From assembly GCA_903868795.1 (NCBI GenBank), contig CAIPWR010000049.1:1-44299 (forward strand): a stretch of DNA of 44,299 bases. The letters run 5' to 3'. Below, piece after piece: positions 7,843 through 27,777 of this stretch. Below the pieces are notes generated by a model. It was not told where the DNA came from. It saw only the letters and a program-made list of their open reading frames with translations, and made no database searches. Made by a program: the position numbers and the translations under genes. Numbering within the stretch: the first letter of the stretch is position 1; the number at the start of each line of letters is the position of its first letter. Source of the stretch: an uncultured Spartobacteria bacterium. GTDB taxonomy: Bacteria > Verrucomicrobiota > Verrucomicrobiia > Chthoniobacterales > UBA6821.

Positions 7843-8838
7843 TCAGATCTTCCCCTGCTTCTTAAGCCAATCGGCCGTTGCGGCAAGAGTTCCGGAAAGT
7901 GATCTGGTGGGCTTCCAGCTAAACTCCTTCTCGAAAGGCTTCCCATCACAGACCCAGCGGTCGGGTAGGATCTCGCGAACCCGGTCACGCCCTAGACTGG
8001 GAGCAGCGGCACGCCACGCAGGTACGGCATCGATCACGACTGAAGCGAGTTGGATCACCAACTGAGGTAGCGACAGCGTGACCCCCCGAGCACTGATCAC
8101 CCGAGCCGCTGTAGAAATTAACTCTGTGTCGGTAATCGTGTTTTCTGAGCCGAGGTAAAAGGGTCCGTGTTTTGGCCAGTCAGCGGGCGCGACCAGTGCA
8201 GAGACAAGGATCGCATCGCAGAGATCCTCGACATCGATCCAGCTGTAATGCTTGGCCTTGAAACCGGGTTTAACCCTGATAGCTCCCGCCGCCATTTTGA
8301 AAAGCGGCAGGGTGGCGGCATCGCGGGGACCTAGAACCATTGGGGGACGCAGGATCAGGAGGCGAGGGCCGAGACGGTTGCGGAGCTCTCTTTCCATCGT
8401 GAGTTTTGAGGCTCCATAGAGCGAGACAGGTTGATCCTGATCATCCATCGAGCGGGCGACCTTCCCCCGCTGCGTAGGACCCCCAGCAGCCTGAGAGGAT
8501 AGGACAATGACCCGGGCCGTTCTTGGCAACTGGGCCATGAGACGCAGGGTTCCCTCCACATTCGTTTCAAAATACTCCTCGCGACGCCTCCCAAAGAGGA
8601 GTCCCGCCGCATGGATGACCAGATCAGGAGCGGAATCTGGAGGAAGCTCCCAGAAATTCCCAGTAACACGGCACGGAACAAATCGATCGTCGCGGATCCC
8701 CTCCCCATCCAACTGCGAGCTGAGCTTCTCGAGATCACGGACAGGGAGAATAATCCGACTCCAGCGCCGGTCACGCTGGAGCTTACGAAGAAGATTCCGT
8801 CCGACGAATCCCGTGGATCCGCTCAGGAGAAGTTCCAT
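7843..8838 (-). CDS. NAD(P)-dependent reductase, epimerase-like; probable ceramide reductase (CerR-like)
   Basis: A 331-residue extended short-chain dehydrogenase of the NAD-dependent epimerase/dehydratase type. The N-terminal nucleotide-binding loop GSTGFVGRNLL is at residues 7-17, and the YxxxK catalytic pair is in SLYGASK at about residue 139. The family alone would allow a sugar epimerase. The context argues for CerR, which in Caulobacter reduces the 3-keto group of N-acylated 3-ketosphinganine to give dihydroceramide: the two genes immediately upstream look like serine palmitoyltransferase and the bacterial ceramide synthase. It starts 23 nt after the acyltransferase gene stops, so co-transcription is likely. 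The SDR family is certain; the substrate is inference. Confidence 0.75.
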   Translation of the reverse strand: MELLLSGSTGFVGRNLLRKLQRDRRWSRIILPVRDLEKLSSQLDGEGIRDDRFVPCRVTGNFWELPPDSAPDLVIHAAGLLFGRRREEYFETNVEGTLRLMAQLPRTARVIVLSSQAAGGPTQRGKVARSMDDQDQPVSLYGASKLTMERELRNRLGPRLLILRPPMVLGPRDAATLPLFKMAAGAIRVKPGFKAKHYSWIDVEDLCDAILVSALVAPADWPKHGPFYLGSENTITDTELISTAARVISARGVTLSLPQLVIQLASVVIDAVPAWRAAAPSLGRDRVREILPDRWVCDGKPFEKEFSWKPTRSLSGTLAATADWLKKQGKI

Positions 8839-8861
8839 GGGGAGTGAAGGCGATCCCAGGA

Positions 8862-10016
8862 TCAGGCCAACGACTTCTCGTAGAGCTCGTAGGTGCGGGA
8901 ATGGTGTCCACCCATGAGTTCCGCCGCCTCGAGGATTTCCACATTGTTTGCCTCGACCCAGGAGACCTCAGAGAGTTCGTACTTGGCCTTGGCGATGCGG
9001 AAACTCTCGAAGAAGAGCAGGGCACTGAGTCCCTTGTCCCTGTAGGCCGGCTCGACTCCCAGAACGGTGAGGCGGTCGGTCTTGATCTTCTGGACCTGAA
9101 GTCGCAGGGCCATCTCGAGAAAACGGAAAACTCCCTTGCGTCCGCGAGAGGCATGGAAAACTTCGTTCACGTTCGGCAACGCCAGCGAAAAACCAACGTC
9201 GCGACCATCCACACAAACGAAGACAATAATGCTTGGATCGGCAATCGCCTTCAAGTCATCCGCCGCATGGAGCAAATCTTCCAAAGCAATCGGATAGAAA
9301 CCCCAATTGCGGTCAAGGCACTGGTTATAGAGGCGATGGATTGTCTCCAGTTCCTTGTTCAGGTTCTTCATGTCGATCGTGCGGATCGAAACATTGTTTC
9401 TTTTCTTAAGCCAGTTGACGATTTTGGTGACTCGGGCGGGCGGTTCCGCATGCAGAGGAACATCCCAAGCGTAGAGCGTCCTGATAATGCCAAGTCCAAC
9501 CGCATTGTAGACCTCATCGTAATACGTCGGATTCCACGGCATCGAAATGAAGGTGGGTCGGTCATTACCCTTTGTCAGCACGCCGCAATCATCATTGATC
9601 GAGGGGTTATAGGGCCCCCTCATGATAGTCAGTCCCTTATCCTTCAGGATCTTGGCAGCGGCATCGACCAGAGCCCTAGCCACCGAGGGGTCGTTGATAA
9701 AATCGAAAAATCCAAAGAAGCCGACCGAGTCCTTGTTGTGGCTGTTGTGGGAACGGTTGACGATTGCCGCAATGCGGCCAACGGGCTTCCCGTCGCGGCA
9801 AGCGATCAGGGGAGTGATCTCCCCGTGTTTTTTTAGGAAAACCGACTTCGGGCCAATAAGGCCGACGACGCTACCGGGAAACGGCGGCGTGAAGTTCGGA
9901 TCCGTTCCGTGAAGAATCTCCGGAATCGACTCGAACTTCTTCAGCTCCGCCGCGCTGCGGCAGGGCAAAATCGAAAACGTTCCGGCGGCGGCCTGGTTCT
10001 GTGTATGCTGGGTCAT
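8862..10016 (-). CDS. GNAT-like N-acyltransferase; probable bacterial ceramide synthase (bCerS-like)
   Basis: A 384-residue protein of the acyl-CoA N-acyltransferase superfamily. It opens with a YghO-like segment (ILPCRSAAELKKFESIPEIL, then GTDPNFTPPFPGS). The middle contains MRGPYNPSINDDCGVL, and the C-terminal GNAT-like fold has LTVLGVEPAYRDKGLSALLF followed by SEVSWVEANN. Long GNAT proteins of this kind next to serine palmitoyltransferase correspond to bCerS, which N-acylates 3-ketosphinganine before its reduction. Neighbours agree: spt upstream, the reductase downstream. The ATG at 10016 lies inside the end of spt, a 146-nt out-of-frame overlap, but the conserved N-terminal segment requires this start or one very close to it. 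Enzymatic assignment is inferred from context. Confidence 0.72.
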   Translation of the reverse strand: MTQHTQNQAAAGTFSILPCRSAAELKKFESIPEILHGTDPNFTPPFPGSVVGLIGPKSVFLKKHGEITPLIACRDGKPVGRIAAIVNRSHNSHNKDSVGFFGFFDFINDPSVARALVDAAAKILKDKGLTIMRGPYNPSINDDCGVLTKGNDRPTFISMPWNPTYYDEVYNAVGLGIIRTLYAWDVPLHAEPPARVTKIVNWLKKRNNVSIRTIDMKNLNKELETIHRLYNQCLDRNWGFYPIALEDLLHAADDLKAIADPSIIVFVCVDGRDVGFSLALPNVNEVFHASRGRKGVFRFLEMALRLQVQKIKTDRLTVLGVEPAYRDKGLSALLFFESFRIAKAKYELSEVSWVEANNVEILEAAELMGGHHSRTYELYEKSLA

Positions 10017-11202
10017 CGAAGGTTCCTAGTTCTCGGGCGATTTTAGCAAAAATGTCGAGCACCTTGTCGAGATCCTCATCAGTGTGGGTCGACATGAAGC
10101 TGGTACGGACAATCGCTTCGCCATAACGAACGGCTGGATAGATCGCTGGTATGGCAAAGACACCCTCCTCGAAGAGACGCTGGGCAAAGGCAAAGGCTTT
10201 GGCTTCGCTGCCAATGAGAATGGGAACAATGGGACTCTGGGTGGACCCAATCTTGAAACCGATTGACTTGAAACCCTCGTGCATCTTGCGGGTATTCTTC
10301 CAGAGCATCTCGATGCGCTCCGGTTCGGCCTGCATGATTTGGAGAGCTTTGAGAACTCCACCAGTCACGGCTGGAGCGAGTGAGGCGGTGAAGATAAAGC
10401 AGCGGGCCTTGTGCTTCACAAACTCAATGAGCTCGTTGGATCCGGAGATGAACCCTCCCATGGAGCCGAAGGACTTGGAGAACGTGCCCATGACGATCTC
10501 GACATCGTCATTGACCCCGAAGTGATGCACCACACCGCGTCCCTGAGGACCAACCACACCGAGTGAGTGGGCCTCGTCGACATACATGATGGCGCCATAT
10601 TCCTTGGCTGCCTCCACCATCGGGGGCAGATCAGCCATATCGCCCGACATACTGAAGACACCATCCATGATGATCAGGCGTCCGGAATCTTCGGGGATAC
10701 GCTTAAGACGATTGCGAAGAGCATCCACCGAGTTGTGGCGATAGGGAACAAGTTTGGCGGGAGCTACCTGGCATCCCTCGATGATCGAGGCATGATTCTC
10801 ACGGTCACAGAGAATGAAATCATCAGCCTCCGTGAGAGCGGCAAGGGCGCCTTGGTTGGCAAAGAAACCGGTCGAGAAAAGAAGGGCGCTTTCGCGGCCA
10901 AGGAATGCTGCCAACGCCTCCTCCAACTCATTGTGGAGAGAGATCGTGCCGTTCAGAAGACGGGAACCGGTGCAACCGGCGCCGAATTTGCGCGTCGCCT
11001 CGCAGGCCGCCTCGACAATGCGAGGGTCTTGGGCCAGGCCGAGGTAGTTGTTCGACCCGATCATGATCTTCTCCTCGCCACCGCAGACGACATGGTTGCC
11101 GTAGCTCTGCTCAATGCAGCGGAAATACGGGTAGAATCCTTGCGCCCGGGCATCTGCCGAATCGCTATACTCTCGGCACTTCTTGAAAAGGTCTCTGGCC
11201 AT
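9871..11202 (-). CDS. spt: Serine palmitoyltransferase-like alpha-oxoamine synthase
   Basis: A PLP-dependent alpha-oxoamine synthase that would condense serine with a long acyl thioester to 3-ketosphinganine, the first step of sphingolipid synthesis. It shows YFRCIEQSYGNHVV, GSNNYLGLAQDPR and GAGCTGSRLLNGT. The PLP-stacking His is in ENHASIIEG, the Asp/His pair in VDEAHSLGVVG, and the Schiff-base Lys in TFSKSFGSMGGF (about residue 241). BioF or Kbl are the alternatives; the ceramide-type neighbours favour SPT. ATG at 11202 (MARDLFKKCREY) is preferred because family homology starts there; an upstream ATG at 11253 adds 17 residues. About 48 C-terminal residues beyond the usual fold overlap the next gene in another frame. 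Confidence 0.82.
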   Translation of the reverse strand: MARDLFKKCREYSDSADARAQGFYPYFRCIEQSYGNHVVCGGEEKIMIGSNNYLGLAQDPRIVEAACEATRKFGAGCTGSRLLNGTISLHNELEEALAAFLGRESALLFSTGFFANQGALAALTEADDFILCDRENHASIIEGCQVAPAKLVPYRHNSVDALRNRLKRIPEDSGRLIIMDGVFSMSGDMADLPPMVEAAKEYGAIMYVDEAHSLGVVGPQGRGVVHHFGVNDDVEIVMGTFSKSFGSMGGFISGSNELIEFVKHKARCFIFTASLAPAVTGGVLKALQIMQAEPERIEMLWKNTRKMHEGFKSIGFKIGSTQSPIVPILIGSEAKAFAFAQRLFEEGVFAIPAIYPAVRYGEAIVRTSFMSTHTDEDLDKVLDIFAKIARELGTFDDPAYTEPGRRRNVFDFALPQRGGAEEVRVDSGDSSRNGSELHAAVSR

Positions 11203-11295
11203 TGCTACTGGGTGGAAAATCGCAGGAAATGGAAGGCGTGTAAATGCTTTCATGCACCCGCTGGAAGCGGGAACAGAGTAGGGAGGAGTAAAAAA

Positions 11296-11369
11296 TCGGG
11301 GCGACAGGATTCGAACCTGCGACTTCTTGGTCCCAAACCAAGCGCTCTACCAAGCTGAGCTACGCCCCG
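11296..11369 (-). tRNA. tRNA-Pro (anticodon UGG)
   Basis: The minus strand folds into a complete cloverleaf. It has a 7-bp acceptor stem CGGGGCG/CGCCCCG, a D-arm with AGCTCAGCTTGGTAGAGC, and an anticodon stem CTTGG/CCAAG enclosing the loop TTTGGGA with anticodon TGG. The T-arm is GCAGGTTCGAATCCTGT, and the discriminator base is A. CCA is not encoded; a T-run follows directly, serving as a simple terminator. It reads codons of the CCN box and lies upstream of spt in the same orientation. Confidence 0.96.
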
Positions 11370-11436: not shown

Positions 11437-11451
11437 CCGTTCCCTAAACGG
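11437..11451 (-). terminator. Weak terminator-like hairpin at the GH130 gene end
   Basis: On the minus strand CCGTT and AACGG pair around a 5-nt loop and are followed by TTTAT. The TAG stop of the GH130-like gene falls in the loop. The stem is only 5 bp, so termination here is uncertain. Confidence 0.3.
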
Positions 11452-12904
11452 ACTTCAGCAACGCGATCAAGGGATCCAACGGAACGCTGACCACAGCCGA
11501 GGCACGGTCGCTCACGGCAAATGGAAGAATCAGCTCTCGGCCATGAAGTAGAGAACCACAACTATAGACGACATTGGGGACATATCCCTCACGCTCAGCT
11601 CCGATAGGTGAGAGAAGAGGCTCACGAAGACGCCCGATCACCTTGGTGGGGTCATTCAAATCCAGCAGCGCAGCTCCGATACAATATTTGCGCATGGGCC
11701 CGACCCCGTGTGTGATGACAAGCCAACCTGCCTCCGTCTCGATGGGCGAGCCGCAATTGCCGATCTTCACCGACTCCCACATTTCGGAAGGGCGCAGGAT
11801 CACTTGCGGATCACTCCAATAATGAGGGCTATCCGAGAACATGATGAAGAGGTTCTCATCGTCCTGGCGCGAGAGCATGGCGTAACGCCCATTGATGTGA
11901 CGTGGAAAAAGTGCCATCCCCTTGTTCTGCACGGCACTTCCGTTAAGCGTCAGGATGCGGAAGTGCAGGAAATCCTTGGTTTCGATGAGCTGTGGCAGAA
12001 TGGATCGTCCGTTATAAGCCGTGTAGGTGGCATAATAGATGACCTTTCCATCATCTTCGATGAAGCGGACAAAACGGGCATCCTCAATCCCATTGCTCTC
12101 ATTCGTTGAAACGGGAAAAATAATCCGTTCACTCATCGCCAGTTTCTCTGAAAAAAGAAGTTCGTAGTTTGATTTAGCAAGCCACTTGACGCTCTCCAGC
12201 GTCCGCAGCATTTCATGGTTCGCCGGTTGCTGCTCACTCAGGATCGTGGCGATACTTTGGTTCAAATCGGCAAGAGTAAAGTCATCAGCAAGGTGCCCCA
12301 TGACGGCACCGACATATGATTCTTCCAGCCCCATCTCCGAAAGTTTCATGATGAAGAGTTGCTTCTGATAGCTCGGGTTTGGCACCACTTCCGGCACGGT
12401 CACAAAACGGGAGACCGGATCGAACGAGATGCCCCCTCCGGCAGCAATCACGCCTGACCGGAATTCAATGGAGGAAATATGACCCTCCCCGGTTGCACGC
12501 AGACTCATTACAAACCTGAGGGCCCCTTTCGGGAGATTGCTCTGATCGGGATGCGGCACCATGGAGGGATTGAAGATCGCCGCAGACTCGAGGGCATACT
12601 CCCCGGAAAACAACGCTCCGATCAGCAACTCCCTTTCACGGGAAAGCTGGCGGTGCGTGAACACATGATGCTTAACCCGTAAAAAATGAGCCTCCAGAAC
12701 TGATTGGGTATCCAAGTGCCGGGTCTCGAATTCTGCCAATACTGCGGCGAGTTGCATTCTCACCTCATCCTCGGTGAGGGCAAGAGCTCTGCCAATGATC
12801 GTGGTGACACGGTGAATCTCCGCAGGAATGAAAGGACGTATAATGACACGCGCACTTTCCGGAAGAAGTGTCACCTCATGGCGGCAAAGTCTAATGAGAT
12901 TCAT
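11444..12904 (-). CDS. GH130-like glycoside phosphorylase/hydrolase
   Basis: A 486-residue protein related to glycoside hydrolase family 130, whose members phosphorolyse beta-1,4- or beta-1,2-mannosides. It has an N-terminal helical extension (about residues 1-140) ahead of the five-bladed propeller. Propeller motifs are IFNPSMVPHPDQ, ISSIEFRSG, GIEDARFVRF (the position of the family's catalytic acid region) and GSPIETEAGWLVITHGVG with GPMRKYCIGAALLDL. It starts 9 nt after the GT4 gene stops, so the two are almost certainly co-transcribed. This pairing suggests turnover and synthesis of the same mannoside-type glycan. Substrate is not determined; no signal peptide is visible, so it should be cytosolic. 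Confidence 0.85.
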   Translation of the reverse strand: MNLIRLCRHEVTLLPESARVIIRPFIPAEIHRVTTIIGRALALTEDEVRMQLAAVLAEFETRHLDTQSVLEAHFLRVKHHVFTHRQLSRERELLIGALFSGEYALESAAIFNPSMVPHPDQSNLPKGALRFVMSLRATGEGHISSIEFRSGVIAAGGGISFDPVSRFVTVPEVVPNPSYQKQLFIMKLSEMGLEESYVGAVMGHLADDFTLADLNQSIATILSEQQPANHEMLRTLESVKWLAKSNYELLFSEKLAMSERIIFPVSTNESNGIEDARFVRFIEDDGKVIYYATYTAYNGRSILPQLIETKDFLHFRILTLNGSAVQNKGMALFPRHINGRYAMLSRQDDENLFIMFSDSPHYWSDPQVILRPSEMWESVKIGNCGSPIETEAGWLVITHGVGPMRKYCIGAALLDLNDPTKVIGRLREPLLSPIGAEREGYVPNVVYSCGSLLHGRELILPFAVSDRASAVVSVPLDPLIALLKSV

Positions 12905-12913
12905 TGTAATTGA

Positions 12914-15178
12914 TCAGGCAGCGATCGGTGCAGGAGGAATGAGATGTTCGGCGCGATTCATTTCCGCAAGTGCCAGATGGAAGGCAAGCGATGATTCGGC
13001 GCCCTGATTTTCACTGACCCGGTCGCAGTGCAATCCATCGCTGCATCCACCGGTGCTGAAATCATAAAGTGGCAGCCCCAGATCGTTGCGCCCCAGAAAC
13101 CACTCAAAAGATCGCCATGCCTCGTGCGTCCAGGCAATATCTTCCGTTGCAGCAAAAGCCTCGTGGCAGGCGGAAATCATCGCCAAGGCCTCCAGCGGTT
13201 GTTGGTCAAAATCGGCCCTTGCACCATCCTTTTTGTAAAATCCATTGCTGCCGATGGGTCGAAAACAGCCTGCCTGAGTTTTCTGGAGTGATGTCAGCCA
13301 GCGAAGCGATTTCAGTCCGATGGCAAGCGTCTCATCCTCTCTCATGGACTGACCGCTCAGGATGAGCGCCTGGCAGAACCTTGCATTATCATAGGTGAGA
13401 CTTGCCTCGAACCAAAGCCAGTCCTCCGTGGCGTATTCTTCCCAGAGCTTTAGGAGCCTTGAGACAAGGTGCCCACGCAGCAGACTTGTCTTTTTCTCCC
13501 CGGGAAACCGTCGCTGATATTCATGGATTCCCAAGAGGGAAAAATTCCAAGCCCTTGGCGAAGTGAATTCCTTCACCACACCCAATCCTTTCATGAAAAG
13601 CTGCTCGCAGAGCCGTCGGTGCCCTTCGTCATGTGAACGGCCGACGCCTGTGCCGAGAGCCCAGAGCGCACGCGCATGACTGTCCTCACTCCCGGCATCC
13701 TCAAGCCACTGCCTTCCATGACTCATGAAATTGCGGAATCGCCCGCTCCCATAATCAAGTGCCGCCGCTAGAAAGGCTAAATAGCTAGTGGCATGACCGG
13801 AAAGACTCTCCTCGGGTGATTCCCCCCCAACCTCATCCAGCAGATTGCAGAGAATATAGGCCCTGGCATTGTCATCGGTGCAGTAGCCTTCGTGGAAATT
13901 CGGCACATTGAAAATCGCGTGCTGAAAAATACCGGTTCCATCACTCATCCGAATGATGTGATCCAGTCGTAGAGGGGGAAGTTCTGATGGCCGACTACCG
14001 AGCGTCCACCCGGCGAAGGCTGCCCGTGGAAGGAAATTCCGGTCGGAACGGGCATGCTGGAACGTCTGCAGATACCGTTGCGCAACCGCCGGCCAGATCA
14101 TGGTGCGCCCGATTGCATAGGCCTCCCCACGGATTGCTTCCATGCGGGAGGGGTCATGAAGGAGACCGCAGACTCCTTCGGCGATGGCCTTGGAGTCCCG
14201 AAAAGGAACGAGTACACCGCGCTCCTCCGAAAGCAATTCCTGAGCATGCCAGTAGGGCGTGGAGACCACCACTTTCCCTGCTCCAAAAACATAGGCAAGC
14301 GTGCCCGAAGTCACCTGCGCAGCGTTCAGGTAGGGGGTAAGGTAAACGTCGGTTGCTCCTATGAATTCCTTCAGATCTTCCGACGAAACAAACCGATTGT
14401 AGAAGATCACATGTTCCTTCACTCCACGATCACGAGCAAGCCGTTCCAGACTCAATCGATAGCGTTCACCTTCGGTCGCTAGCTGATGAGGATGCGTCGC
14501 CCCCAGAACCAGATAGACGACATCCGGGTGTCTGCGGACAATCTCGGGCAACGCCTCGATCACATACTCGATCCCTTTGCCGGGAGAGATCAGCCCGAAA
14601 GTCAACAGCACAGTCCGCCCCTCCACTCCGAACTCGGCCTTGTAAAACGACGAGTCCTTGAAGGGAATATCTAGGATGCCATGAGGGATCACATCGATCT
14701 TTTCCTGCGGAACTTCATAGACCTCACGTAGAATCTCAGCTCCATGCTGCGCCATCACTACCAGACGGTCACTGCGACGAGTCAGTTCGCCCATCACCTT
14801 GCGCTGTGCAGGACTGGGCTCACGAAGGATAGTGTGTAGCGTCGTCACCACCGGCATCCGCACTTCCTTGAGCAAGGCCAGCAGATGACTTCCGGCAGCC
14901 CCGCCGTAGATGCCAAATTCATGCTGCACGCAGAGCACATCTGCCCTGTTAAAATTCAGAAAATCAGCGGCCCGTCTGTAGGAATCGAGATCTTTCTCCA
15001 ACAGTTCAAATCGAACCCTGGGCGAATAATCATACCCTTCCTGGCGATCATTTACCGCTCCAACAAAGCAGTCGGCCTCGGGAATCTCACGAGCGACCGA
15101 CTCGCACAAATCATGCGTGAAGGTCGCTATTCCGCAAAGTCTGGGCAGATAATCCCCCAGAAAGGCAATGCGCTGCAA
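12914..15178 (-). CDS. GT4 glycosyltransferase fused to a C-terminal helical-toroid domain
   Basis: A 754-residue two-part protein. Residues 1 to about 385 form a GT-B, family 4 glycosyltransferase: RIAFLGDYLPRLCGIATFT at the start, VQHEFGIYGG, VIPHGILDIPF, LLTFGLISPGKGIEYVIEAL and LTPYLNAAQVTSGTLAYVFG. Residues of about 400-745 are a separate domain with repeated helical motifs (CTDDNARAY, SHARALWALG, WEEYATEDWLWFE, FDQQPLEALAMI, GCSDGLH, NQGAESSLAFHLALAEM) resembling an (alpha/alpha) toroid of carbohydrate-active enzymes. The start is TTG at 15178: an in-frame stop lies nine codons upstream and the family N-terminus begins here. With the GH130-like gene it probably makes or remodels a mannose-containing glycan; the acceptor is unknown. 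Confidence 0.83.
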   Translation of the reverse strand: MQRIAFLGDYLPRLCGIATFTHDLCESVAREIPEADCFVGAVNDRQEGYDYSPRVRFELLEKDLDSYRRAADFLNFNRADVLCVQHEFGIYGGAAGSHLLALLKEVRMPVVTTLHTILREPSPAQRKVMGELTRRSDRLVVMAQHGAEILREVYEVPQEKIDVIPHGILDIPFKDSSFYKAEFGVEGRTVLLTFGLISPGKGIEYVIEALPEIVRRHPDVVYLVLGATHPHQLATEGERYRLSLERLARDRGVKEHVIFYNRFVSSEDLKEFIGATDVYLTPYLNAAQVTSGTLAYVFGAGKVVVSTPYWHAQELLSEERGVLVPFRDSKAIAEGVCGLLHDPSRMEAIRGEAYAIGRTMIWPAVAQRYLQTFQHARSDRNFLPRAAFAGWTLGSRPSELPPLRLDHIIRMSDGTGIFQHAIFNVPNFHEGYCTDDNARAYILCNLLDEVGGESPEESLSGHATSYLAFLAAALDYGSGRFRNFMSHGRQWLEDAGSEDSHARALWALGTGVGRSHDEGHRRLCEQLFMKGLGVVKEFTSPRAWNFSLLGIHEYQRRFPGEKKTSLLRGHLVSRLLKLWEEYATEDWLWFEASLTYDNARFCQALILSGQSMREDETLAIGLKSLRWLTSLQKTQAGCFRPIGSNGFYKKDGARADFDQQPLEALAMISACHEAFAATEDIAWTHEAWRSFEWFLGRNDLGLPLYDFSTGGCSDGLHCDRVSENQGAESSLAFHLALAEMNRAEHLIPPAPIAA

Positions 15179-23330: not shown

Positions 23331-26300
23331 TTAAGGTTTCGTAACTGGGTTTTGTATGCCTGCGGAGTCGGGTGCCGGCACAGGGGCCGTGGGTGGAGTG
23401 ATTTGCTGAAGCAGTTCCTTGGCCTCCTTGCTCTTGGGAATCTTTTTTGCAGGAATTTTCTTCACCGCAGCACGAATAGCGGATTTCTCCTCGTCTCTCG
23501 AAGCAAGCTTCCAAGCAGTAAGATAAGCCTTAAAACGATCATTGTTGTTGAGATCCGAGAGCGCTTCGATCGTGTCGATATAACCCTTGAGCGCGAGAAT
23601 TTTCTCCGAGTTGCTCTGACCATTACCGGCGATCACGGGGAGCAGGGCTAGGGATGTGGCACTTCGAGCCGAAGAGAGGGCCCTGATGGCCTGTTTCCTT
23701 TGGTCAACATCCTGTGAATTGAGAATTGCACCCAACTTATCGGTAGCTTCCTTCACTTCCAATCGGGCCAACACATTGATCAGGATCTCTTTTTGGGAGG
23801 GATCCCCCTGATCGAAAGCAGAAACGATCTGCAACGCCGCTGCCGAAGGCGAAGGATCGAAGATTGTGGCACGGACAACGGCCTTCTGGAAGTTCTCGGC
23901 ATTCCTTCCCTTCACGCTTGAGACAAGCGTGAGGCACTTTCCAAGATCACCTGAGGCGGCAAGCCGCGAAAGAGCCTCACAACCCGCCGACTGCAATGCA
24001 GGATCGGAGGAATTCATTGCAGCGATTGCTGAATCGATCGCTTTGTGTTCCTGTCGGTCAGCGAGGATGGAGAGCAGGATGGCTGCCAAAGCCGGCTTGG
24101 AGGAAGCCTCGAGGGTGATCAGTTGAGCACCCACGTCGCTTCCCTTCAACGTGGCAACGCCACTTTTGGCAGCTAGCGCAACGGGTGCGTTGGAATCGGA
24201 AAGAAGCTGTGTCAGGGACTCGAGGTTCTTGCCGTCGCCACTCCGGGAGAGACCCCAGATAGCAGCAAGAAGGACATTACTATCTGCGTTGCCGAGAGCC
24301 TTCTGGTAAAGCGGGATCGAGGAAGCATCGGCATTCTGTCCGAGTCGCTTGAGGACAATAACCCAGGCATCCGGGCTGTCACTCCAGGAAACGGAGGCCA
24401 ATTGCTCGGGCGTCCCGAATTCGGCCAACGTCTTGGCAGCGCCGTTGCGGAGGCGGTAATCCTCGTTTTTGAGAAGCGCTACCGCTTCCTTTTGCCCGGC
24501 GGGAAGTTTAGCCGATGCCAGCACGCGCAGGGCGGAAAGTCGCTGAGCGTAGGGTCCCTCGGATCGGGCAATGGAGGCCAGTTTTTCCGAAGCTGCATCG
24601 GCCAAGGCGGTTCCCTTCGCCACCAACGACGAGGAGGCATTGATCACTCCGGCGTTCTTCAGGGCGCCGTTTCCTTTTGCTGCCTTCACCTCGAGGATGG
24701 CCTTCAGGGCCTCGACCGAGCCCAATGAGGCGAGGGTCTGAAAAGCCGATTCGGAAAGAGCGGGAGATTTCGAGGCCGCGACCTTGGAGAGTTCCGGAAT
24801 CGCCGTGGCGGCACCGCGGACCGCGATCGCGCTCATCACGGCCACTTGCCGGTCCTCCCTTCCGGAAGCGAGAAGATCCACAAGGGCCCGATCCGCGGAC
24901 TTGACGGGAATCGTGGCGAGGGCGCGGACAGCGTAGCCACCCGTATTGCCGGCAGCATTTGTGGGATCATTGGCGGTAGATTCCGCGAGTTTCGCCAAAA
25001 CAGGCACGGCGTCTTCGGAACCCATCCATCCGAGCCACCGGCAGATCGTCTCCTTGGCGGCCTCCGTTGTGGAGGGATCCTTCAGGATCGCTACCAGTTT
25101 GGGTTCAAATTGGGAGCGGGTTTCGGGAGTGCCTTTGCGAAGCGCTTCCAAAACGTTATAGGGAGCATCGGCAGCGTCACCGTAGTTGTACTTGGGAAGA
25201 TCCAGCAGGGATGACTCACCCAAAGCCTTCGCCTGATCTGGAGAAAGGGGGACCATAGCCTGTGAAGGTTTGGCGGTTGCGACCGTGTTTGCAGGCGGCG
25301 GTGTCGGAGCCACCGCATTGGTGCCTGCTTTTGGAGGTTCAGGGGCTGCCTGCACTTTCTGAAGCGTCTCCGTGCTTCCCTCGGGAGCAAGCACTGCGTT
25401 GGGCTGTGATTTAAGCGCTGCCGTCGGGACGTCATCGGCGGGGAGATCGCCAAGGGCATACTGGATGCCGTCCAGGTAGTGCTGGAGGATCTGGGGAACA
25501 AAGAAGATGTCCTTGTTGTGACCAAGCGAGGTGTAGAAGACACGGCCATTGCCCTCCTTTTTGATCCAGGAGATTGGGAAGTCGTTGTCGTTGCGGACAA
25601 TCTGGGGATTACCTCCCTTGTCGAGCAGTGGTTTGCCATCCTTATCGACCGTCTTCGCCTTGGTCTCCGGCTTGCTCATGTCGAGGCTCACCAGCTCACG
25701 TTGCTTCTCGCGACTATAGGGTCCGGTAATCTGGTAGATCTCTTCTTTAAGACGGAACCCCTGATTATTAAACCCCTTGTTGATCGGATGGGTGGGATCG
25801 TCCAGTTTGACCGCCACCAGATCACTGGCATGCCAGGGGTGACCATGAAAAACCCCTCCCATGAGTTCCTGTCCTTCGGGCCATGTAGGGAAATTGTCCG
25901 AAGCGGCGTGGATGCCGACGACTCCTTTGCCTGAAGCAACAAAATCGAGCAGGGCCTTGCGGTGGATGGGATTCACAAATTTCAACCCCGTGGTATTGAT
26001 GAAAATAATGACATCAAATTGCTTCAGAGTCTCGGGATCAAACGAGGCCATGTCGTCGCTGCAAACCGGAGTATAGGCCCCTGCCTTTTCACCAATCCGT
26101 TTCAGTGCCTGCACACCATACGGGATGGATTCATGAACATGTCCCTCGGCACGATAGAAGAGAAGTGCCTTATGCGGTTGCTTCGGCTCGGCAGTCGCCT
26201 TTGCTGGAAGGGCGGCTTCAATCGCTGCTAAATCGGCGGGAGAAATCGGTGGAAAAACAGGCCTGGTGTAAACCTTCGGAGTAGGTTTTGCCACTGCTGC

Positions 26301-26399
26301 AATAGGCGTCGCCGAGGGAGATGAAGATGGCGAAGGATCAGCCGCCAAAGCCGTGGTGGCGAGCGAACAGAGAAGGAGGAATCGGAACGAAGTATTCAT
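23331..26399 (-). CDS. Exported ThuA-domain protein with HEAT repeats
   Basis: A 1022-residue secreted protein. ATG at 26399 is chosen because a Sec signal peptide starts there (MNTSFRFLLLCSLATTALA); an upstream ATG at 26603 would add 68 residues that overlap the previous gene. After a Ser/Pro linker, a ThuA (trehalose-utilisation, glutamine-amidotransferase-like) domain runs from about residue 75 to 330: ALLFYRAEGHVHESIPYG, FDVIIFINTTG, GKGVVGIHAASDNF, MGGVFHGHPWH and GNGRVFYTSLGHN. A Pro/Ala linker leads to about 550 residues of HEAT/PBS-lyase-like helical repeats (for example YAVRALATIPVKSADRALVD). The ThuA part is tied to keto-sugar metabolism by context; the repeats are probably a binding scaffold. 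Confidence 0.88.
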   Translation of the reverse strand: MNTSFRFLLLCSLATTALAADPSPSSSPSATPIAAVAKPTPKVYTRPVFPPISPADLAAIEAALPAKATAEPKQPHKALLFYRAEGHVHESIPYGVQALKRIGEKAGAYTPVCSDDMASFDPETLKQFDVIIFINTTGLKFVNPIHRKALLDFVASGKGVVGIHAASDNFPTWPEGQELMGGVFHGHPWHASDLVAVKLDDPTHPINKGFNNQGFRLKEEIYQITGPYSREKQRELVSLDMSKPETKAKTVDKDGKPLLDKGGNPQIVRNDNDFPISWIKKEGNGRVFYTSLGHNKDIFFVPQILQHYLDGIQYALGDLPADDVPTAALKSQPNAVLAPEGSTETLQKVQAAPEPPKAGTNAVAPTPPPANTVATAKPSQAMVPLSPDQAKALGESSLLDLPKYNYGDAADAPYNVLEALRKGTPETRSQFEPKLVAILKDPSTTEAAKETICRWLGWMGSEDAVPVLAKLAESTANDPTNAAGNTGGYAVRALATIPVKSADRALVDLLASGREDRQVAVMSAIAVRGAATAIPELSKVAASKSPALSESAFQTLASLGSVEALKAILEVKAAKGNGALKNAGVINASSSLVAKGTALADAASEKLASIARSEGPYAQRLSALRVLASAKLPAGQKEAVALLKNEDYRLRNGAAKTLAEFGTPEQLASVSWSDSPDAWVIVLKRLGQNADASSIPLYQKALGNADSNVLLAAIWGLSRSGDGKNLESLTQLLSDSNAPVALAAKSGVATLKGSDVGAQLITLEASSKPALAAILLSILADRQEHKAIDSAIAAMNSSDPALQSAGCEALSRLAASGDLGKCLTLVSSVKGRNAENFQKAVVRATIFDPSPSAAALQIVSAFDQGDPSQKEILINVLARLEVKEATDKLGAILNSQDVDQRKQAIRALSSARSATSLALLPVIAGNGQSNSEKILALKGYIDTIEALSDLNNNDRFKAYLTAWKLASRDEEKSAIRAAVKKIPAKKIPKSKEAKELLQQITPPTAPVPAPDSAGIQNPVTKP

Positions 26400-26439
26400 G
26401 GGGAAAGAAAGGATAACGATAGAAAGGAAGCAGTGGTGG

Positions 26440-27777
26440 TTACACAGGAAGCACCCATGGCCCGCGATAGGAGCGGTGCAGGAGGGCATTGGCATCGGGA
26501 GCACCGACGATCTGCTCCGTGATACGGTCGAACTCCAACTGACTGCGTCCCGAGCGGAAGGCCGCATTGGCAAGATGAGCAGCTGATCCGGCAAAATGAG
26601 CATCCGCGATGGGATGAATCGGTGTTGTACGAGAGCGAATACAACTCAGGAAATTTTCCATGTGAGACTGATTCTCGACGCCGCAATGGAATCCATCAGA
26701 AGGAATTACGGCGAACTTCAGATCACCATTGCTGTAGCTCACGCCGCCACGACAGCACTCGACCCAACCGTTTTCTCCTTCAAAGCGAGTACCAGTCCCA
26801 CCCAGAATGGCAGTTCCATTCATCACATCAATGATCTGCCCATTGGCATAGCGCGCCTGAAATTTGTATTGAGTAGCCGTATTGAAGAGCGGACTCGGAG
26901 GATCAAATTGGGCTGAGGCATTCAAAATCTCGGTGGGTGATTCTGTATTCAATCCCATCCCCCAGAGGCCGATGTCGTAATGATGACTGACCCAATCGGT
27001 CACCTGTCCGCCGCCGTAGTCATAGGACCAGCGCCAGTTCCAGTCACAGCGCTCCTTGTAATAGGGAACAAAAGGTGCAGGCCCTAGCCAGAAGTTGTAG
27101 TCAAAATCAGGCGGAGGAGTTTGTGGTGCCATCGGTGGGATGAAAGGCCCGCCATGCTCCCCTCTCCCTTGAGGCATGAAGACAACGACCTTGGTGATTT
27201 TTCCAAGCATCCCGTTGCGTACCAGTTCCACCCCGCGATGGAAGTAGGGTGAAGAGCGTTGCTGTCCTCCAACTTGAACGACAGCTCCCGTGCGGCGCAC
27301 CGCCTCCACCATGGCGCGACTTTCGGGGATACTCGGCGCAGCGGGCTTCTCCACATAGACATCTTTTCCAGCATTCACCGCAGCAATCATGATGAGGGCA
27401 TGCCAGTGATCGGGAGTGCCGATAATGACGGCATCGAGATCGGGGCGGGCAAGAATTTCGCGGAAGTCCCTGTAGACGTCGCACCCTTTGTAGCTGCCGG
27501 AAGCCTTCTGGGCAGCATAAGCCGTCTCAACCTGCTCCTTCGCTGATTGGGCATGGGCGTCGTTCACATCACAGACCGCAATAACCTGCGCATTCACAGA
27601 GGCTAGGGCCTGGCTCATGTCACTGCGCCCCTGACCACCGCAACCGATCAGCCCGATGGTGATCCGCTCGTTCGGGGATTTCCTGACAGGCATCGAGCCA
27701 TCGGCGCGCAGAAGGGAGGGAAACACGGCCGAACCCGAGGTCAGGGCCATCATTCTGAGAAAGGAGCGTCTATTCAT
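26440..27777 (-). CDS. Tat-exported Gfo/Idh/MocA oxidoreductase (second)
   Basis: A 445-residue sugar dehydrogenase-type protein. MNRRSFLRMMALTSGSAV is a twin-arginine signal. The dinucleotide fold has IGLIGCGGQGRSD, CDVNDAHAQSA and VIIGTPDHWHALIMI. The catalytic-Lys motif is canonical here: DVYVEKPAAPS. The substrate domain has VTDWVSHHYDIGLWGMGL, with the family's active-site His region. The ATG at 27777 is supported by the signal peptide. It follows the DUF1080 gene by 47 nt and precedes the ThuA-HEAT gene by 40 nt, one transcription unit by spacing. Oxidation of a glycoside at C3 fits the neighbours. Confidence 0.9.
   Translation of the reverse strand: MNRRSFLRMMALTSGSAVFPSLLRADGSMPVRKSPNERITIGLIGCGGQGRSDMSQALASVNAQVIAVCDVNDAHAQSAKEQVETAYAAQKASGSYKGCDVYRDFREILARPDLDAVIIGTPDHWHALIMIAAVNAGKDVYVEKPAAPSIPESRAMVEAVRRTGAVVQVGGQQRSSPYFHRGVELVRNGMLGKITKVVVFMPQGRGEHGGPFIPPMAPQTPPPDFDYNFWLGPAPFVPYYKERCDWNWRWSYDYGGGQVTDWVSHHYDIGLWGMGLNTESPTEILNASAQFDPPSPLFNTATQYKFQARYANGQIIDVMNGTAILGGTGTRFEGENGWVECCRGGVSYSNGDLKFAVIPSDGFHCGVENQSHMENFLSCIRSRTTPIHPIADAHFAGSAAHLANAAFRSGRSQLEFDRITEQIVGAPDANALLHRSYRGPWVLPV

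Follow-up and report, generated by a model that had tools for sequence, protein, structure and literature searches.

Does the gene trio at positions 7843 to 11202 of contig CAIPWR010000049.1, from an uncultured Spartobacteria bacterium, make ceramide, and are its first two genes genuinely encoded by the same DNA where they overlap? The trio lies on the minus strand of a stretch of 44,299 nucleotides (nt), the whole of which we analyzed and refer to as the window, and comprises spt, cerS, and cerR. The comparisons presented here indicate, with a probability of roughly 80%, that all three enzymes of a ceramide pathway are encoded here as one operon, in a freshwater Spartobacteria-type (Chthoniobacterales-like) Verrucomicrobium, and that spt and cerS are dual coded. 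The original prediction had read three consecutive same-strand open reading frames (ORFs), with the motifs TFSKSFGSMGG and YGASK, as an Spt-CerS-CerR ceramide unit; the ORFs and motifs were all found, and homology, trees, and gene order back the probable identity of the unit. The new part is the spt/cerS overlap, which that prediction mentioned only in passing and which measures 146 nt (9871 to 10016). Dual coding of this length is very unusual for same-strand bacterial neighbors, and our literature search found no description of an spt/cerS overlap or of ceramides in Spartobacteria.

The first gene, spt (9871 to 11202), encodes a serine palmitoyltransferase (SPT)-type alpha-oxoamine synthase of 443 residues with its pyridoxal phosphate (PLP) lysine, K243, in TFSKS. 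The second, cerS (8862 to 10016), encodes a tandem-GNAT N-acyltransferase of 384 residues in the bCerS/YghO family, and the third, cerR (7843 to 8838), encodes an extended short-chain dehydrogenase/reductase (SDR) of 331 residues carrying YGASK. By the ORF coordinates only 23 nt (8839 to 8861) separate cerS from cerR, and because this spacing is so short and the same order is found in relatives, the three genes probably form one operon. No terminator-like site was reported between cerS and cerR on that strand, and a promoter scan gave no match. Gene order, strand, and overlap are identical in all 16 genomes of the same genus, a recurrence that excludes a chance origin for the arrangement. The first ATG of the spt ORF lies upstream, at 11253; in two same-genus loci (L007 and L011), however, an ORF from that ATG ends after 15 to 16 codons, and most other same-genus loci encode a 443-residue Spt from the equivalent of 11202, which makes 11202 the better start.

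Is the PLP enzyme an SPT? Its best match in the PDB is the Sphingobacterium SPT (405 bits, 4e-120), ahead of a BioF/Kbl-type enzyme (316 bits), the Sphingomonas-type SPTs (~300 to 306 bits), and Escherichia coli Kbl (262 bits). In a maximum-likelihood tree it falls in one 100/99 clade with the Sphingobacterium and Sphingomonas SPTs and with the cerS-adjoining Spts of other phyla. That clade excludes E. coli BioF, E. coli Kbl, 7poa, and the BioF-like paralogue of this genome. A BioF/Kbl identity, which the original prediction had named as the phylogenetic outcome that would overturn its reading, is thus ruled out by the tree and by the presence of a separate BioF-like paralogue. The PLP lysine (K243), the stacking histidine (H137), the Asp/His pair (D209 and H212), and the carboxylate arginine (R366) are invariant in a 40-sequence alignment. 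The closest solved enzymes, the SPTs of the Sphingobacterium/Bacteroidota type (PDB 3a2b and 8guh), share its catalytic residues but lack the C-terminal extension that the window Spt encodes inside cerS.

Alpha-oxoamine synthases differ in their choice of amino acid, and among the matches to Spt is a cysteate acyltransferase of the same fold (28eh). The trio might therefore make a related N-acylated amino-lipid by the same logic of condensation, acylation, and reduction, for example, 1-deoxyceramide from alanine or a sulfonolipid from cysteate. We regard this as unlikely: SPT matches reach 405 bits against 233 bits for the cysteate enzyme, and the window Spt is placed in the SPT clade.

The assignment of CerS rests on full-length homology and fold. 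CerS is 29% identical to Sphingomonas CerS (1e-47) and 29% identical to E. coli B YghO (4e-46), with identities of 28.8 to 29.0% over 368 to 383 residues. Its AlphaFold2 model has a predicted local distance difference test score (pLDDT) of 88.5, and the top Foldseek matches are tandem GNAT enzymes (E value, 1e-13); the Pfam GNAT match is weak, and no NCBIfam model matches either CerS or E. coli YghO. The reference CerS comes from a Sphingomonas parapaucimobilis plasmid cluster arranged cerR-acpR-spt...lptF-lptG...cerS. The reference YghO comes from E. coli B strain AS19, where it adjoins genes for Spt, an acyl carrier protein (ACP), an SDR, and a fatty acyl-AMP ligase; the five-gene set of E. 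coli BL21 and Caulobacter has been identified as ceramide genes (Padilla-Gomez et al., PMC9386255). E. coli YghO is a CerS homologue, though in K-12 (L133) it is annotated as a putative DNA-binding regulator. Strain AS19 (L155) keeps aasR-cerR-acpR-spt beside yghO, and in K-12 the insertion element IS5 adjoins yghO, the annotated region there having no spt.

For the SDR, the rival identity of a sugar epimerase, likewise raised by the original prediction, is ruled out by the tree: CerR groups with 24 other cluster CerRs, and a 100/99 branch splits them from GalE, RfaD, RfbB, Fcl, Gmd, and the genome's own SDR on contig C138. Its Pfam match is Epimerase, at 2e-19. Caulobacter CerR is located in the periplasm. 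The N terminus of the window CerR is directly the Rossmann motif (MELLLSGSTGFVG), as is that of Sphingomonas CerR.

What chemistry would these enzymes carry out, and with which acyl donor? Spt would join L-serine to a long-chain acyl-coenzyme A (acyl-CoA) to give 3-ketosphinganine, CerS would N-acylate this product as a tandem-GNAT enzyme, and CerR, a putative NAD(P)H-dependent Rossmann reductase, would reduce the 3-keto group to yield dihydroceramide. Acylation before reduction is taken from the Caulobacter model, since sequence cannot tell the order. The rhodobacterial cluster (aasR-cerR-acpR-spt plus cerS/yghO, as in Caulobacter, Sphingomonas, and E. coli B) encodes homologous Spt, CerS, and CerR proteins for what is presumably the same chemistry. 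In Rhodobacteria, however, cerS is transcribed as a separate unit, and acyl-AcpR is the preferred substrate of Spt (PMC11324152, PMC9386255), whereas in the window spt-cerS-cerR form one tight unit with neither acpR nor aasR. No ACP gene lies next to spt, and AcpR and AasR queries against the three ACP-like loci and three AMP-ligase loci of the draft genome returned no convincing orthologue, in keeping with the original prediction that the window holds no dedicated ACP or acyl-ACP synthetase. The three ligases are an acetate-CoA ligase, a long-chain-fatty-acid-CoA-ligase-like protein, and the ligase of a cluster on contig C108. Among these loci of the draft genome, nothing points to a rhodobacterial AcpR/AasR-dependent system. 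A need for AcpR is known only for rhodobacterial Spts, and Bacteroidota Spts take acyl-CoA (PMC11324152); because the characterized nonrhodobacterial Spts use acyl-CoA (PMC9386255, PMC11324152), the absence of AcpR and AasR is expected rather than puzzling. The window Spt lies outside the rhodobacterial branch of the tree, and this placement, together with the lack of an AcpR/AasR pair, makes acyl-CoA its likely donor. The C108 cluster (L047), with two ACPs, an AMP-ligase, and flavin adenine dinucleotide-dependent enzymes, possibly serves aryl-polyene or pigment biosynthesis.

How real is the overlap? All 16 genomes of the genus, the window's included, have an overlap of exactly 146 nt in phase +1, and so uniform a length excludes sequencing error. 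In the order's other families that carry the pair the overlap spans 41 to 146 nt. In named loci of other phyla spt and cerS either share a few bases or are separated, one Gemmatimonadales locus having ambiguous starts; the long overlap also occurs in two metagenome-assembled genomes (MAGs) titled Bdellovibrionales and Deltaproteobacteria, titles that are unreliable. The conserved N terminus of the CerS family falls within the overlap, so cerS cannot simply start later. Ahead of cerS, the sequence TAGGA (10024 to 10028) holds both a Shine-Dalgarno-like AGGA 7 nt before the ATG and a TAG in frame with CerS, so that this frame is closed upstream. At this site 20 of 21 members of the window's family have CTA or TTA as the Spt leucine codon; nine members of the order from other families use neither, and in eight of these nine cerS begins further downstream. 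A programmed frameshift producing an Spt-CerS fusion is not favored, since the TAG three codons before the cerS ATG closes the frame in 20 of the 21 family members, although a shift within the overlap itself might still occur.

At the other boundary, the spt stop codon TAG (9871 to 9873) is built from the CerS Gly-Ser codons GGT AGY of a PFPGS motif. GGT makes up 16% of the glycine codons elsewhere in these cerS genes, and in three sister-genus genomes whose spt stop falls 72 nt earlier, the same glycine codon is GGA, GGG, and GGA. Alignment and the AlphaFold2 model point to a lineage-specific C-terminal extension of Spt, beginning GTFDDPAYTEPGRRRNVFDF (9874 to 10022). In an alignment that covered other phyla with the Myxococcaceae set aside, the Spts of those phyla end at or near the start of this tail, mostly with an "ELG(L)I"-like end. 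Myxococcaceae Spts (L069, L072, L077, L092, L094, and L101) bear an unrelated C-terminal tail of ~115 residues before a nonoverlapping cerS.

Evidence for dual coding comes from synonymous diversity within the genus. In the CerS frame it is 0.143 in the overlap versus 0.488 beyond it (p = 8e-15), and in the Spt frame it is 0.145 in the overlap versus 0.464 outside (p = 7e-14); synonymous variation is thus down about threefold in each frame. Judged by this codon variation, 48 codons at the end of spt and 48 at the start of cerS are shown to occupy the same DNA, read in two frames that are both constrained. The first third of the overlap varies as Spt coding sequence does and the remainder as CerS coding sequence does, with the wobble positions of the other frame still damped. 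In the AlphaFold2 models, the Spt tail encoded by the overlap (residues 405 to 443) has a pLDDT below 50 and is predicted to be disordered, and CerS is predicted to be disordered at residues 1 to 11 only and ordered from ~12 to 48.

Two other accounts of these data must be weighed. One holds that the overlap is an annotation artefact, with spt ending near codon 395 or cerS starting past the spt stop and the second frame untranslated. Its precedent is a survey of 338 genomes in which all 715 same-strand overlaps longer than 60 bp were judged misannotations, none being genuine (Palleja et al., PMC2478687). No start past the spt stop, however, could restore the conserved CerS N terminus, and an alternative TTG at -98, absent from two genomes, would leave a 98-nt overlap anyway. 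The position of the spt stop is kept in 25 of 30 loci, both frames are constrained, and the negative controls are unaffected, so we consider an artefact very improbable. A genuine codirectional overlap is one conserved among orthologues and constrained in both frames, and the spt/cerS pair is both.

The other account attributes the low synonymous variation to a conserved RNA element, such as a riboregulator or a coupling hairpin, or to a general effect of 5' ends. The overlap does hold a translation initiation site, and RNAalifold predicts some pairs in it, yet the covariation term is a negligible -1.19 of -29.4 kcal/mol, which does not support RNA structure as the cause of the conservation. 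A 5'-end effect is contradicted by two controls: synonymous diversity is not lowered in the first 48 codons of cerR (0.58 versus 0.56; p = 0.70) or in the first 75 codons of the nonoverlapping Myxococcaceae cerS (0.199 versus 0.196; p = 0.46). Variation also tracks the codon positions of both frames, and constraint eases after an early spt stop, where the released CerS codons 26 to 48 rise to a synonymous diversity of 0.35 from ~0.18, in a comparison of few sequences that includes one with a broken cerS frame. We therefore hold these explanations to be quite improbable and retain dual coding.

How, then, would such an overlap work? CerS translation may start at the Shine-Dalgarno site internal to spt, opened by ribosomes finishing spt, and CerS output would thereby be tied to Spt output. 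The overlap would have arisen in this lineage when a C-terminal tail was added to Spt and a short leader to the N terminus of CerS; each of these is probably disordered, for the most part, opposite structured or conserved parts of the partner protein. Taken whole, the proposal that the 146-nt overlap is truly dual coding, at more than twice the longest accepted in the survey, that internal initiation on it fixes the Spt:CerS ratio, and that the Spt tail may pass 3-ketosphinganine to CerS in a shared complex is a tentative one, to which we assign a little under even odds.

The nearest precedent is the holD/rimI pair of Enterobacteria, like the window pair a genuine, lineage-conserved, partial same-strand overlap; at 32 to 56 bp it is the longest accepted by that survey (PMC2478687), against 146 nt here. 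Later work calls overlaps of 10 to 60 nt "long" and links short ones to translational coupling and complex formation (PMC10666635), and among long overlaps phase +1 is the commoner, which has been put down to sequence composition (PMC2542354). In E. coli, embedded or antisense overlaps of greater length have been described. The window overlap is accordingly not the sole long bacterial one, but it is long, deeply conserved, on the same strand, and between two recognizable enzymes. As a natural example of extended dual coding on one bacterial strand it is clean and strongly conserved, and sister lineages with a shortened overlap make ideas about the origin, cost, and enzyme-ratio effects of overlaps testable.

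Several points weigh against the reading of a ceramide operon with dual-coded spt/cerS. Both ceramide production and dual translation are predicted here from sequence, and the amino acid that Spt selects (serine, alanine, or cysteate) goes beyond what sequence settles. Alignment columns were taken to be independent in the codon statistics, and the genomes share ancestry; the genomes are also drafts, some with misassigned titles. Three loci (L019, L020, and L023) have lost the last ~25 codons of Spt, so the end of its tail is not essential. The original prediction had called for comparison of the three proteins with those of Caulobacter by profile model and structure; our references were the Sphingomonas and E. 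coli B orthologues standing in for Caulobacter's own three proteins, and the comparison upheld CerS by full-length homology and GNAT fold, while Spt, whose best NCBIfam model is SerpalmtaseCFB, scored 492.7 bits, below the cutoff of 640. The Spts of Myxococcus (514.8) and Rubrobacter (443.8) also miss that cutoff, and the model is therefore narrow rather than defining for SPT.

Is the trio peculiar to this organism? A scan of named genomes with the CerS alignment gave 80 loci. In 58 of the 80, spt lies upstream of cerS on the same strand, within ~400 nt in all but one, and cerR follows downstream on that strand in 22. The spt-cerS loci include representatives of Myxococcus, Mucilaginibacter, Ignavibacteria, Gemmatimonadota, Nitrospirota, Elusimicrobiota, and Chloroflexota, and on plasmids of Rubrobacter and Streptomyces the three genes follow one another as they do in the window. 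Loci of this type are already known and, spread over many phyla, are not special to the host organism. Clustering of these genes was noted earlier in general terms, in work whose probable ceramide producers include 22 Verrucomicrobiota MAGs (PMC11334938). The compact loci of Rubrobacter, Streptomyces, Myxococcaceae, and Mucilaginibacter hold the same three genes in the same order as the window, but their spt and cerS overlap by at most 4 to 8 nt or are slightly spaced, without a dual-coded stretch. Outside Rhodobacteria, the statement in the literature that cerS is "always" in a different operon fails. Published work has also taken the separate position of cerS as support for a salvage pathway, an argument affected by the finding that cerS and spt can be transcribed together. 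Chthoniobacterales-like freshwater Verrucomicrobia now join the probable makers of ceramide. Within the same order, two 0.9-Mb single-contig genomes (G028 and G038) lack cerS, whereas larger genomes of the same genus (G046 and G054) keep it; this absence looks like loss during genome reduction.

Elsewhere in the window, a second apparent overlap of 164 nt, at 26440 to 26603 on the minus strand between the ORFs at 23331 to 26603 and 26440 to 27777, probably reflects an overcalled start, as the ThuA domain begins at residue 145 of the ORF at 23331 to 26603. Around the operon, cerR is convergent with an algH/yqgE-like gene, and a GH130 mannoside-phosphorylase-like gene and a two-part glycosyltransferase (11444 to 15178, minus strand) adjoin the trio. 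A tRNA-Pro(TGG) gene (11296 to 11369, minus strand) precedes spt by 93 nt in the same orientation, and spt may share its transcript.

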